A DNA stretch of 64,000 nucleotides, taken from positions 502,172 through 566,171 of the forward strand of contig NZ_LN852694.1 of NCBI RefSeq assembly GCF_001244545.1, given 5' to 3'. This DNA comes from Candidatus Stoquefichus sp. SB1 (GTDB lineage: Bacteria > Bacillota_I > Bacilli_A > Erysipelotrichales > Coprobacillaceae). How positions within the stretch are numbered: the first letter of the stretch is position 1; every line of letters begins with the position of its first letter. Both the position numbers and the translations under genes were made by a program. Below, in pieces: positions 48,256 through 52,271 of this stretch. Under the pieces are notes generated by a model. The model was not told where the DNA came from. It saw only the letters and a list, made by a program, of their open reading frames with translations, and did no database searches.

Positions 48256-49859
48256 GGCTCTGTGTCAAGAGTGGAGGATAAAGGAATAACTATTGAAAAA
48301 TAGGGATTCCTTTTTTTCTGTCTTTATAAGTAAAAGTATAACTATATCCAAGATGTAAAAATATGCGTTTTCTTAAATTGTAGAAATATCTGAAACCATA
48401 TGCATTCCTTTTGACAAGTTTGATTTTATTATTCATTCCTTCAATGAATCCATTATTAAAGCTCGTTCTATATGATCTGTTTCTTCTTTTGTATATGGTT
48501 GTATAGGATAATGAACATAAAAGAGGAATAAACCATCTCTTTCTAAAGTTTTTAGCAGTTATCTGATAATAACTATTTTGAGTATCAAAGATATAATCAA
48601 GCCATCTGTTTAATTCTTTTTTGTAGTCATTATGTTTTTCATGTATAAGTTTCAATAGATTCTGATAAATTTCATAGTTATCAAGCATTTCTAAAATGAC
48701 AAGAGAATCGAACATAGTATTATCATCACAGTCTTTATCATTTCTTCTTTCACTAAGATCATAAAGATAATCAATATAGGAAGCACAGGTAAAGTATCTT
48801 TTCAGATGAAAATCATACCATGTCTTTTCATTATCCAGATCTTTTCTGAATTTATAGAATAATCGAAGCTGTCTTTTGATAGATTTAGCTAATGGCTGAT
48901 AGTGAAGAGAAGAACAGGCATCGAGTCTTGACTGGATAAAATTCTGACCAGCAAGTCTGACGTAATGAAACCTGTCACATATAATCTGGGCATGAGGGAA
49001 AAGAGAATGCATAATACAGTAAAAAGGACCAGAAAGATCCATAATGATAAACTTAACCTTCTTTCTTTCAGAGAAGGGAAACCTAAGGAAATAGTTTTTC
49101 AGGAAGGAAGCTTTTCTATCTTCGATAATATCAAGAGTTTTACCAGTGATAGGATTGACTATATTAAAAGCATAAGTTCCCTTATCGCTGGTAGCCTTAA
49201 ATTCATCAATAGAGATAACAGAGGAAAGATGATAGAATCTATCAGGAATATGGATATTTTCACTGAAGATGCGATACATAGTATTTTTACCAAGGCCATG
49301 CATTCTGGAGATGGAAGCCATAGAATGATTTTCATTCAATTCAAAAAGAGCGGACTGAACATTAGGAATAGTAGCCTTTCTATTGTAAAACTGAAAAGGA
49401 ATATCTTCAACGAAATAGGAAGAACAGTCATGACAAATATATCTGTGATAGGAAACCACAAGAACGACAGGGAGAGAGCCAAAGGAGAAATGCTTAAGAT
49501 TGATAGATCTTGTTCCTTTAGATATGTGATGATTATATGAACCGCAGTGAGGACAGACAAGAGGAGAGACTTGAGATTTAAGATGGATGAATAAAGTGAG
49601 AACACCGTTAGAATCAGGAACTTTTTTAAGACATGAAGAAGAATCATCAAAGGGAGCAGGAATAAAAAGATGAGAAAAATGATTAATTTGTAGAATTTCA
49701 AGAATAAGATTGATATAATCAGAAGTGGACATAATATATAACCTCCAAAGAATTTTAGTTAGCACATAAATTTTACAGTAAGGTTATAGTTATGTCTATT
49801 TTTATATAAAAAATAAAACTGAAAGATTTATTTAAATCCTCCAGTTAAATTATAGAGCC
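48256..49859 (-). mobile_element. ISL3-family insertion sequence, 1604 bp
   Basis: Ends start GGCTCT on both sides and share GGAGGAT about 12 bases inward (48271-48279 region; 49836-49842 region reversed), forming imperfect terminal inverted repeats. Perfect 8-bp target duplication CGTTTAGG at 48248-48255 and 49860-49867. Contains one full transposase gene on the minus strand. Appears intact, so recent insertion is likely. Confidence 0.93.
48290..49732 (-). CDS. ISL3-family transposase
   Basis: A 480-residue DDE transposase. The N-terminal zinc-binding region reads VCPHCGSYNHH (about residue 60) and YICHDCSSYF (about 101), followed by a helix-turn-helix (HSMASISRMHGLGKNTMYRIF). The catalytic core shows ISIDEFKAT (D and E, about 174), IIMDLSGPFY (about 228) and ICDRFHYVRLAGQNF (about 248), and the end has NGFIEGMNNKIKLVKRNAYGFR, the family's typical C-terminal block. 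Start at 49732 has TTTGGAGG upstream. No frameshift seen. Confidence 0.93.
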   Translation of the reverse strand: MSTSDYINLILEILQINHFSHLFIPAPFDDSSSCLKKVPDSNGVLTLFIHLKSQVSPLVCPHCGSYNHHISKGTRSINLKHFSFGSLPVVLVVSYHRYICHDCSSYFVEDIPFQFYNRKATIPNVQSALFELNENHSMASISRMHGLGKNTMYRIFSENIHIPDRFYHLSSVISIDEFKATSDKGTYAFNIVNPITGKTLDIIEDRKASFLKNYFLRFPFSERKKVKFIIMDLSGPFYCIMHSLFPHAQIICDRFHYVRLAGQNFIQSRLDACSSLHYQPLAKSIKRQLRLFYKFRKDLDNEKTWYDFHLKRYFTCASYIDYLYDLSERRNDKDCDDNTMFDSLVILEMLDNYEIYQNLLKLIHEKHNDYKKELNRWLDYIFDTQNSYYQITAKNFRKRWFIPLLCSLSYTTIYKRRNRSYRTSFNNGFIEGMNNKIKLVKRNAYGFRYFYNLRKRIFLHLGYSYTFTYKDRKKGIPIFQ

Positions 49860-49969
49860 CGTTTAGGAAGGTCTTTTTTGCTTGTGAAAAAGTTAATGAT
49901 GTGAAAAGTGACATCTTGCTTTTTTGGGATAAAAAAAAGTGATAGAATAATGAAAAGGAGGTGTCGCTT

Positions 49970-50203
49970 GTGGCTAATGAAGGAAAACGTTGTTATTGTC
50001 GCTGTATTAAAGAAATGACAATGATTATTGGAAAAGAAGAAATGGTTATCTTTGCATTTAAGAAAGTTTATCCTTGTATGATTAGGACAAGTGACATGGA
50101 GGTTAATTATTATAAAATATATGGAGAAGAGTTTTCATTAAGCTGTAGTGAGGTAGAATTTAAGGAACATTTTAAGCTCATTATTCATACACAACATGAT
50201 TAG
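49970..50203 (+). CDS. small hypothetical protein
   Basis: A 77-residue protein starting at GTG 49970, 8 bases after AAGGAGG; a GTG at 49961 overlaps that site. It begins ANEGKRCYCRCIKEMTMI and has four cysteines. No membrane helix or recognised family. It lies between the IS and the ATPase-like gene, 66 bp before the latter; the two may be co-transcribed. Confidence 0.6.
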   Translation: MANEGKRCYCRCIKEMTMIIGKEEMVIFAFKKVYPCMIRTSDMEVNYYKIYGEEFSLSCSEVEFKEHFKLIIHTQHD

Positions 50204-50269
50204 AATTTTGAAGATGGGTTTGTTTTTTGAAAAAAATATGTTATGATGTCTTGAGAAAGGGTGATAAAT

Positions 50270-52216
50270 TTGTCGAAAAAAACATTTGAAATATCAAATA
50301 TTCAGACGGTTGAAGATTTGAATAAATTAAGTCTTGAACTCAATTCTAGAGAACAAGTCTCACATATTAAAATAAATAAAGGCAGTATTACTTTTAACTG
50401 TATTGATATTGATGCCTTATTACGCCTTATTCATGGGATTAATAAAGAATTGGTGATTAAAGAGGTTATTGATGGTACAAAACGTCAATATGATTTTGCT
50501 CAAAAAAAGGAAGTAAAACATTACTTTATGTTTAGAAACCTTATGACTGAAGATGATATTGAAGTATTGGTAAAAAATCTTGAAGATGATCAAAGATACC
50601 ATGATGTTTATTATGATTCACAAAATAAACTGTTAACCCTTATTTCTTCACAACGTGATGTTTTAAGCTTGGTACGTAAAGAACTCTTTAAAATTAATCC
50701 TTCTATAGATATGATTGAACATCGAAAACCAATTCGTTCACAAGATGTTTTTAATCAGAAATATATTCAAACTTATATTCGTGTTGGTATTTTTCTTGTT
50801 GTGATTGCATTGGCTTTGATTACTTCAAAAGATCATAGTCAGTTAACACCTTTTTTATGGTTAGCAACGATGTTATTATTGGCTGAACAATTATTAAGAA
50901 AAGCCTTTAAAGATATAAAACAAAAACATATCTTAACAGAAGATGTTTTGGCATTGTGTGCAATGCTTATGGGTGTTGTTTCAGGTGCTTATTTTGAAAC
51001 ATGCTTAGCTGTAGTTTTGTATGAAGCGACAACACCACTGCTTAATAAATTCTTAGAGCACTCATTAGAAAAAATAGATCGTGCTGTTGAAATGCCTGAA
51101 ACTGGCACAAGAGTGGTAGATGATCATGAGGAAACAGTGTCTTTGTATGAAATAGAAGTTGGAGATATTCTTGTTATTAAACCTGGTGAAACTGTTCCTA
51201 TTCCTGGAAAAGTGACCAAAGGGCCTTCTGAATTAAATACTTATTCTAATACTAGTACTTATGAACTTGTAAAAGTGAAAAGAGGAAGTGAAGTTCATAG
51301 TGGTGATGTGAATGCTGGTCAAAATCCAATTTATGTTAAAGTGAGCGAAACTTATGAAAGTTCTAATTATATTGAATTGATGAATATTGCAAGTGTTGCA
51401 CCGGCATATGAGTCAAAGATAGAAAAATATACAAAAACTTTATCAAAATTTTATACACCATTAATGGTTATCTTAGGGCTTGGATTAGGTATTATTTTAC
51501 CAATTGTTAATTTTAAAGATTATGGACAATATATTCATGTAGGAGCTATCTTGTTATTGTTATCTGGAGCTTTATCTAGTGATCAATCTACATCATTAGG
51601 AATGTTAGCAGGATTTGCAAAAGCTTTTCAAAATGGTATTATTGTGGAATCATCTTTAGGATTAGATTCTATTAATGCTGCTCAAACGATTGTTTATGAT
51701 CGTTTTGATGGTGTTGAAGTAAGTGAAGAAGAATTAGAATTGTTTAAGAAATTATCACATATGGGAAGAACATTGGTTATTTTTAATGATGGACCTGTGG
51801 CTTTAGAAAATGATCAATATACAATTTATAATGATTTGACTGTTGAAGAAAAATTAGAAAAAATGGATACATTGATTGGACCAATTGTCTATATTGGTGA
51901 TAGTTTTAAAGATATTGCACTTTTACAAAAGAGTTTTGTTGGGATATCACGTGGTGGTCTAGCAGATTCTAAAGTGGTTGAAAATAGTGATGTTGTTTTG
52001 ATCGATTCACAATTAAATCGGGTTTATGAAACATTCATCATTGCAAGAAATATGCGTACAATTGCTGTAGCAAATCATATTTTAACTTTATCTATGAAGT
52101 TAGCTATATTGATTTTGGTTATTTCTTTTACAGCTTTACCACTTTGGGGTGTTGTTCTGGCTGAGTTTTTAGTCAGTGCCTTTGTCATGGTGAGTGCTAC
52201 ACATATTTTAGAGTAG
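50270..52216 (+). CDS. degenerate P1B-type ATPase-like membrane protein
   Basis: A 648-residue protein built like a heavy-metal P-type ATPase but without its working parts. Residues 1-140 form two ferredoxin-like segments without the CxxC metal site. Membrane helices surround an actuator-like domain (VGDILVIKPGETVPIPGKV, about 301-319) in which the TGES loop is replaced by SNTSTYE. The CPC helix reads SGALSSDQSTS. The phosphorylation motif DKTGT is replaced by DRFDG (Asp about 477), and YIGDSFKDIALL follows after only about 70 residues, so the nucleotide-binding domain is missing. TTG start at 50270 after AAAGGGTG. No stop or frameshift: probably a maintained protein with another role. Confidence 0.75.
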   Translation: MSKKTFEISNIQTVEDLNKLSLELNSREQVSHIKINKGSITFNCIDIDALLRLIHGINKELVIKEVIDGTKRQYDFAQKKEVKHYFMFRNLMTEDDIEVLVKNLEDDQRYHDVYYDSQNKLLTLISSQRDVLSLVRKELFKINPSIDMIEHRKPIRSQDVFNQKYIQTYIRVGIFLVVIALALITSKDHSQLTPFLWLATMLLLAEQLLRKAFKDIKQKHILTEDVLALCAMLMGVVSGAYFETCLAVVLYEATTPLLNKFLEHSLEKIDRAVEMPETGTRVVDDHEETVSLYEIEVGDILVIKPGETVPIPGKVTKGPSELNTYSNTSTYELVKVKRGSEVHSGDVNAGQNPIYVKVSETYESSNYIELMNIASVAPAYESKIEKYTKTLSKFYTPLMVILGLGLGIILPIVNFKDYGQYIHVGAILLLLSGALSSDQSTSLGMLAGFAKAFQNGIIVESSLGLDSINAAQTIVYDRFDGVEVSEEELELFKKLSHMGRTLVIFNDGPVALENDQYTIYNDLTVEEKLEKMDTLIGPIVYIGDSFKDIALLQKSFVGISRGGLADSKVVENSDVVLIDSQLNRVYETFIIARNMRTIAVANHILTLSMKLAILILVISFTALPLWGVVLAEFLVSAFVMVSATHILE

Positions 52217-52236
52217 ACTTGTTCTACTCTTTTTTT
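52211..52236 (+). terminator. terminator of the ATPase-like gene
   Basis: GAGTAGA / TCTACTC, 7 bp with 5-base loop and seven T; the stop codon lies in the stem. Confidence 0.75.
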
Positions 52237-52271
52237 GGAAGTCTTGAAACAATAGGGAAAGGAAATACAAA

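Follow-up and report, generated by a model that had tools for sequence, protein, structure and literature searches.

The window analysed here, the whole stretch of 64,000 nucleotides from Candidatus Stoquefichus sp. SB1, carries at 50270..52216 (+) the gene of a P1B-ATPase homologue that has no nucleotide-binding domain (N-domain). The frame 50270-52216 is open over 648 codons from a TTG and encodes 648 amino acids; a GTG at 50261 is also in frame and would give 651. The TTG start is supported because a conserved ribosome-binding sequence (agaaagggtg, 50254..50263, +; found from the sequence and the upstream alignment) and an extended −10 element stand just upstream, and ATG occupies the equivalent position in four Thomasclavelia-type orthologues. 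The intact frame and plausible TTG start described in an earlier note on this DNA thus held up. A probable promoter of the gene's own, TTGTTT-16-TATGAT with TG preceding the −10, was read from the sequence at 50220..50247 (+) and is absent from the list given by the sequence scan. The extended −10 pattern TATGnTAnnAT was kept in 13/13 aligned upstream regions, which represent 13 of the 26 orthologues aligned below. The sequence scan placed a terminator-like hairpin with a T run directly 3′ of the gene (52210..52238, +). Together, the extended −10 and the hairpin suggest that the ATPase homologue is transcribed on its own. A gene for a small protein of about 80 residues with four cysteines (49961..50203, +) lies 66 bases upstream of the TTG.

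In most orthologues the gene is located between prfC and a pseudouridine synthase gene, which is followed by infC and rplT, and a glycerate kinase gene often stands between the ATPase homologue and the pseudouridine synthase gene. The glycerate kinase gene of close relatives (L042 6862-7986, L044 6911-8032) is missing from the window at 52217-52271. An ISL3-family transposase gene (PF01610, 2.7e-32; window 48290-49765, −) is inserted between prfC and the small four-cysteine gene and is absent at the equivalent place in the close relative L042.

The domain layout was assigned from a structural model, profile matches and alignments (all features on the + strand). Residues 1-156 (50270..50737) form two domains with the HMA-like element order in the secondary structure of the model, where the two units cover residues 1-151; beta-alpha-beta-beta-alpha-beta is the order typical of HMA metal-binding domains. 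CxxC is missing from both, with no cysteine in either N-terminal loop in any of 26 rows, and the region has no notable sequence match in the PDB (best E 2). Membrane helices MA, MB, M1 and M2 follow at residues 160-272 (50747..51085; model and structural match), and then the actuator domain (A-domain) at residues 273-378 (51086..51403; PF00122 and alignments), in which NTST stands at the TGES position (51248-51259; alignment). M3 and M4 (residues 383-460, 51416..51649; alignments) include SGALSS (51563-51580; alignment), with GAL at the CPC position. The phosphorylation (HAD) domain, or P-domain, spans residues 461-582 (51650..52015; model, HMM and alignment) with no N-domain inserted, and M5 and M6, in which no residue is invariant, close the protein at residues 583-648 (52016..52213; model and alignment). 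Within the P-domain, alignments place DRFDG at the DKTGT position (51698..51712), Lys528 (51851..51853) opposite the PxDK/PEDK lysine of pumps and GDSFKD at the GDGxND position (51896..51913).

The sole Pfam match was PF00122 (E1-E2_ATPase, the actuator-domain model; 9.3e-17). In NCBIfam, models of P1B subfamilies scored best: the Cd/Zn-type model gave 139 bits, where its curated cut-off is 313.5, and the heavy-metal model gave 136 bits, where it is 346.25, so that neither reached half of the required score. HMMER aligned a profile of the 26 orthologues with the solved structure of a Zn pump, 4umv (2.9e-40), in two pieces that bypass the N-domain. The AlphaFold2 model (pLDDT 78.9, pTM 0.65) was compared with the PDB using Foldseek and VIA, and the P1B fold was present, with A- and P-domains, MA/MB and M1-M6. 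The best VIA match of the whole model was CopA 7r0g_A (Z 24.3, 445 residues aligned, r.m.s.d. 5.0); the P-domain alone matched CopA 3a1e (Z 17.2, 140 aligned, r.m.s.d. 2.7). The predicted fold is therefore that of a P1B ATPase without the N-domain, and the unrelated fold that the earlier note had allowed for was not what the model returned.

Three features are required of a pump: the N-domain for ATP delivery, the TGE glutamate for dephosphorylation and the CPx motif for the membrane ion site. Asp477 and Asp544 stand 67 residues apart, whereas the equivalent Asp residues of the genome's own ZntA-type pump (L147; alignment columns 23 and 210) are separated by 187, so that some 120 residues, corresponding to the N-domain, are missing. 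One report (PMC11970713) gives isolated LpCopA N-domain constructs as E433-D553, 121 residues. An earlier estimate of about 70 residues between DRFDG and GDS was right in recognizing a short gap; the exact figure is 61, or 67 from Asp to Asp. The catalytic Glu of TGE is missing in 26/26 orthologues (NTS, INGS/INGN or DG variants), as is the CPx metal site of M4. DKTGT is replaced by DRFDG in 25/26 rows and by DRIDD in one, with the Asp retained, and GDGxND has become GDxxKD in all 26, with both Asp residues retained and Asn changed to Lys. The earlier observation that TGES, CPC and DKTGT are all altered (here NTST, GAL and DRFDG) thus extends across the family. Without an N-domain, ATP could not be taken up as in pumps, and without the CPx site the usual binding of metal in the membrane would be impossible. 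Since the N-domain, the TGE glutamate and CPx are all absent, ATP-coupled transport by this protein is very unlikely on the evidence of its sequence.

A normal P1B ATPase was also looked for in the genome, as the earlier note had advised, and intact ZntA-type and CopA-type pumps were found, plus a KdpB-type one. Their presence, and a profile nearest to the Zn/Cd subfamily, would suit a regulatory protein that pairs as a heterodimer with one of the cell's active P1B pumps. We consider this highly improbable: family genomes without the homologue have such pumps too, and no such pump was recognised beside the homologue in the loci read, whose neighbouring genes were matched only to those of the window.

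Sixty genomes were searched for orthologues. A full-length orthologue with an intact frame was found in 26/37 genomes of the same family (the window's own included) and in 0/23 of the sister family. In a class-wide draw, 7/296 genomes matched at 1e-60, all of the same family. In a phylum-wide draw, the whole capless P-domain was spanned in 11/392 genomes, again all of the same family, and two further genomes matched part of it only. A pattern scan of one genome per species over 84,980 species returned 28 loci, in Longibaculum, Massilimicrobiota, Candidatus Stoquefichus, Thomasclavelia, Erysipelatoclostridium, Faecalibacillus and [Clostridium] spiroforme, and in entries labelled as Erysipelotrichaceae, Bacillota/Firmicutes or Clostridiales bacteria. 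Across these draws and the 84,980-species scan, the family was found only in genomes that we call Coprobacillaceae-type, because NCBI taxonomy splits Thomasclavelia (Coprobacillaceae) and Stoquefichus (Erysipelotrichaceae) between families. The closest relative of the window protein, at 86%, is from Candidatus Stoquefichus massiliensis.

A P1B ATPase tree gave full support to the split between all 30 active rows on one side and the orthologues plus two reduced relatives on the other; the exact place of the reduced relatives is unsure because their branches are very long. These two homologues, in genomes G002 and G003, have 593 and 594 residues, are 20-21% identical and are encoded near prfC. 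The P-domain is degraded in G002 (D-L-E-E and GES) and almost all lost in G003, where a stub is left. Such relatives near prfC were located at L041 5008-6792 (−) and L040 1933-3714 (−); at L041 almost the entire P-domain is gone and the frame is open. A prfC tree of 31 genomes shows two well-supported clades that have the homologue and a third in which it is reduced; it is absent from a clade of eight genomes and from G009, which belongs to the third clade. This is most simply read as a single origin that predates the divergence of the family, followed by losses.

The slot beside prfC was also inspected in the nine family genomes that lack the homologue, and no P1B gene that might represent an N-domain-bearing ancestor stands directly beside prfC there. 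Instead, seven of the nine loci (L136-L140, L142 and L144; sequences read for six of the seven) have an ORF of 208-224 residues. The slot after prfC without the module is occupied by this membrane protein at, for example, L140 8117-8743 (−), and the one example scanned was weakly PAP2-like (E 0.013, below the cut-off). ATPases of 900-1000 residues located 8-12 kb from prfC in L136-L139 were rejected as orthologues; those read (L136 and L138) are of the ordinary CopA type.

Selection was assessed from the alignment of 26 orthologues including the window's own, the other members of which are 30-86% identical to the window protein. Whole-gene Nei-Gojobori dN/dS was 0.049-0.196 for 10 chosen pairs, values that are rough because synonymous sites are near saturation in several of them. 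The ATPase homologue is kept by selection. Recent decay, an outcome that the earlier note had left to an orthologue search, is ruled out by the 26 intact orthologues, none of which retains the pump motifs, and by the low dN/dS. That the gene is a decaying pseudogene is barely credible: two relatives are shorter and more diverged and the gene was lost in the clade of eight genomes, but for the main lineage this reading is contradicted by 26 intact frames, dN/dS of 0.05-0.20 and a conserved promoter-like sequence.

The constraint is unevenly distributed. Of 50 invariant columns in the 26 rows, 26/122 fall in the P-domain, the best conserved stretch of the protein, and 24/526 elsewhere. Of the P-domain residues that lie at C-terminal ends of the four HAD strands, 15/28 are invariant, compared with 11/94 of the others (Fisher p 1.2e-5, with columns treated as independent). 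A comparison of 11 active ZntA-type pumps with 14 pseudo rows gave invariant columns of 25/78 versus 3/78 in M3-M4, 14/66 versus 0/66 in M5-M6 and 33/122 versus 28/122 in the P-domain (mean identity 0.58 versus 0.65). Because the sets are unequal in size and divergence, only the contrast between domains is readable and not the absolute numbers. The actuator loop and the ion path through the membrane have lost their constraint. The conservation of the P-domain could come from folding rather than chemistry.

The residues invariant in the 26 orthologues include Asp477, Arg478, Asp480, Asn506-Asp507-Gly508-Pro509, Lys528, Gly543-Asp544, Lys547 and Asp548, and 11 checked residues were retained in 6/6 additional orthologues from outside the alignment. 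In terms of HAD motifs, Asp477 is the motif I Asp at the end of model strand 473-477, Lys528 is the motif III Lys, and Asp544 and Asp548 are the acidic residues of motif IV. Asn506-Asp507, at the end of strand 501-506, may stand in the position of motif II (Ser/Thr), its register to the TGD of that motif being uncertain. The assignment of Asp477 was disputed by one method: profile–profile alignment of the P-domain in hhalign paired DRFDG with the last N-domain strand, VAIDGQ, and not with DKTGT, which contradicts Asp477 as the DKTGT Asp. HMMER and the structural ranges support it, and more weight was given to HMMER and VIA. VIA places residue 453 on CopA 400 and residue 463 on CopB 375; assuming no gap, residue 477 falls on CopA 424 and CopB 389, which we take to be the catalytic Asp of those proteins. 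The kept residues correspond to those with which HAD domains hold phosphate and Mg2+, and would be expected to do the same here.

Several of these features would be accounted for by a capless HAD phosphatase or phosphotransferase that is bound to the membrane and has a protein or lipid as its substrate: the retained Asp at the nucleophile position, the Lys and GDxxxD, the invariance clustered at strand ends and the missing cap (N-) domain; a cap is also lacking in HAD enzymes with large substrates. HAD phosphatases have an acid Asp at position +2 of motif I, however, and here that position is Phe in 25/26 rows and Ile in one. Motif II is not securely present either, and in G002 and G003 the P-domain is degraded, so these genomes do without its chemistry, a point against an essential enzyme. 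We regard such an enzyme as improbable.

The main rival is an inert pseudoenzyme, a scaffold or sensor that performs no chemistry and in which the P-domain is purely a structural or binding part; it owes this position to the two relatives without the P-domain core and to the hhalign result that disputes Asp477. The loss of all transport motifs and the Lys in place of the GDGxND Asn would agree with it, as would the open frames and shared neighbourhood of the two relatives without an intact HAD core. Set against this, precisely the positions used by HAD proteins to carry and bind phosphate are retained, in 26/26 and 6/6 rows, and the P-domain is the most conserved region. With the HAD core invariant and the P-domain most conserved, a protein that still deals with phosphate or Mg2+ is more likely than an inert scaffold, which we treat as a realistic but minority possibility. 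The view of the earlier note that this is a pseudo-ATPase and not a pump therefore stands as to a non-pump kept by selection, and needs amendment in that the catalytic centre has not simply been wrecked.

The gene whose distribution follows that of the ATPase homologue is the adjoining small four-cysteine gene. Its product was found in 34 members, and in the 22 aligned Cys13, Cys15, Cys39 and Cys62 are invariant, which suggests a metal site. The gene is present in 34/43 family genomes: in 32/33 with the ATPase homologue (it is missing in G002), in 1/9 without it (G009) and in a 43rd genome, G323, where it stands next to the end of the contig. Both genes mark the identical 7/296 genomes of the class-wide draw; this co-distribution is largely shared descent because the tree shows few independent losses. 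In G009 the small gene occurs alone, at L150 8033-8251 (−), away from prfC and with no ATPase homologue. No notable sequence match to the protein was found in Pfam, NCBIfam or the PDB. Its model (pLDDT 82.5) had no Foldseek match under E 0.28, and the best VIA Z of 5.6, to SH3 domains, does not suffice to assign a fold.

It seems that what was once an ion pump now serves another purpose, probably that of a sensor or regulator. Because the retained residues are those that hold phosphate and Mg2+ in HAD domains, we favour a regulator with a phosphate-handling P-domain: a P1B derivative dead for transport and selected as a membrane-anchored regulator or sensor, the P-domain of which still binds phosphate and Mg2+ or is phosphorylated. 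Our confidence in this reading is evenly poised between acceptance and doubt; the degraded P-domain of G002 and G003, the Lys in the GDGxND motif, the insecure motif II and the hhalign pairing all speak against it. The P-domain would be a HAD module without a cap, with phosphate and Mg2+ as its ligands; alternatively, Asp477 might be phosphorylated by a small phosphate donor or by another protein. The state of the P-domain could then be passed through the P-type scaffold (A-domain, membrane helices and HMA-like N-terminus) to a partner, for which the four-cysteine protein of about 80 residues would be the first candidate. A fuller account is rather doubtful as a whole: the N-domain may have been excised once and the ion path freed from constraint, with the P-domain phosphorylated, or reading phosphate, without ATP and reporting via the four-cysteine partner, after which one branch would have dropped the P-domain and kept the membrane and actuator parts.

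Among known systems, the protein is most like the P1B-2 (Zn/Cd/Pb) ATPases ZntA/CadA (TIGR01512, TIGR01525), with which it shares the domain order, MA/MB and M1-M6, the A-domain, the P-domain fold, a colinear linker from M4 to the Asp and the best NCBIfam scores. Unlike them, it has no N-domain, and TGES, CPC, DKTGT, GDGxND and the N-terminal CxxC are all changed. Five defining P1B motif or domain tests gave a negative result and the protein is therefore not classed as a P1B ATPase; judged from its sequence, it is a derived non-pump relative homologous to them. The N-domain of P-type ATPases delivers ATP and is taken as indispensable. The series from intact pumps through a capless P-domain to almost no P-domain is a natural gradient, and offers a natural test both of the role of a P-domain uncoupled from ATP and transport and of the change from pump to regulator. 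According to strain records, Thomasclavelia, Faecalibacillus and Massilimicrobiota are cultured gut bacteria, and because the genes occur in such bacteria the question is directly testable.

The resemblance to capless members of the HAD superfamily lies in the Asp, Lys and GDxxxD at strand ends; in contrast to these, the P-domain is fused to a P-type membrane and actuator part, and its motif I, DRFDG, has no second Asp at +2. The open-licence literature searched yielded no stand-alone bacterial family that has shed the N-domain and kept the P-domain core, and no bacterial case in work on N-domain-less, pseudo-/truncated or cyclase-linked P-type ATPases or on Thomasclavelia P-type ATPases. Degenerate P-type ATPase units are known: the P4-ATPase-like domain of Plasmodium guanylyl cyclase beta is without most signature residues (PMC6592433; see also PMC5746546), and in the guanylyl cyclase alpha paralogue a conserved catalytic Asp is required for parasite survival (PMC7858053). 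As in the guanylyl cyclase beta domain, most P-type signature residues have been lost here and the protein has been retained; the Plasmodium domain differs in that it is of the P4 type, eukaryotic and fused to a cyclase.
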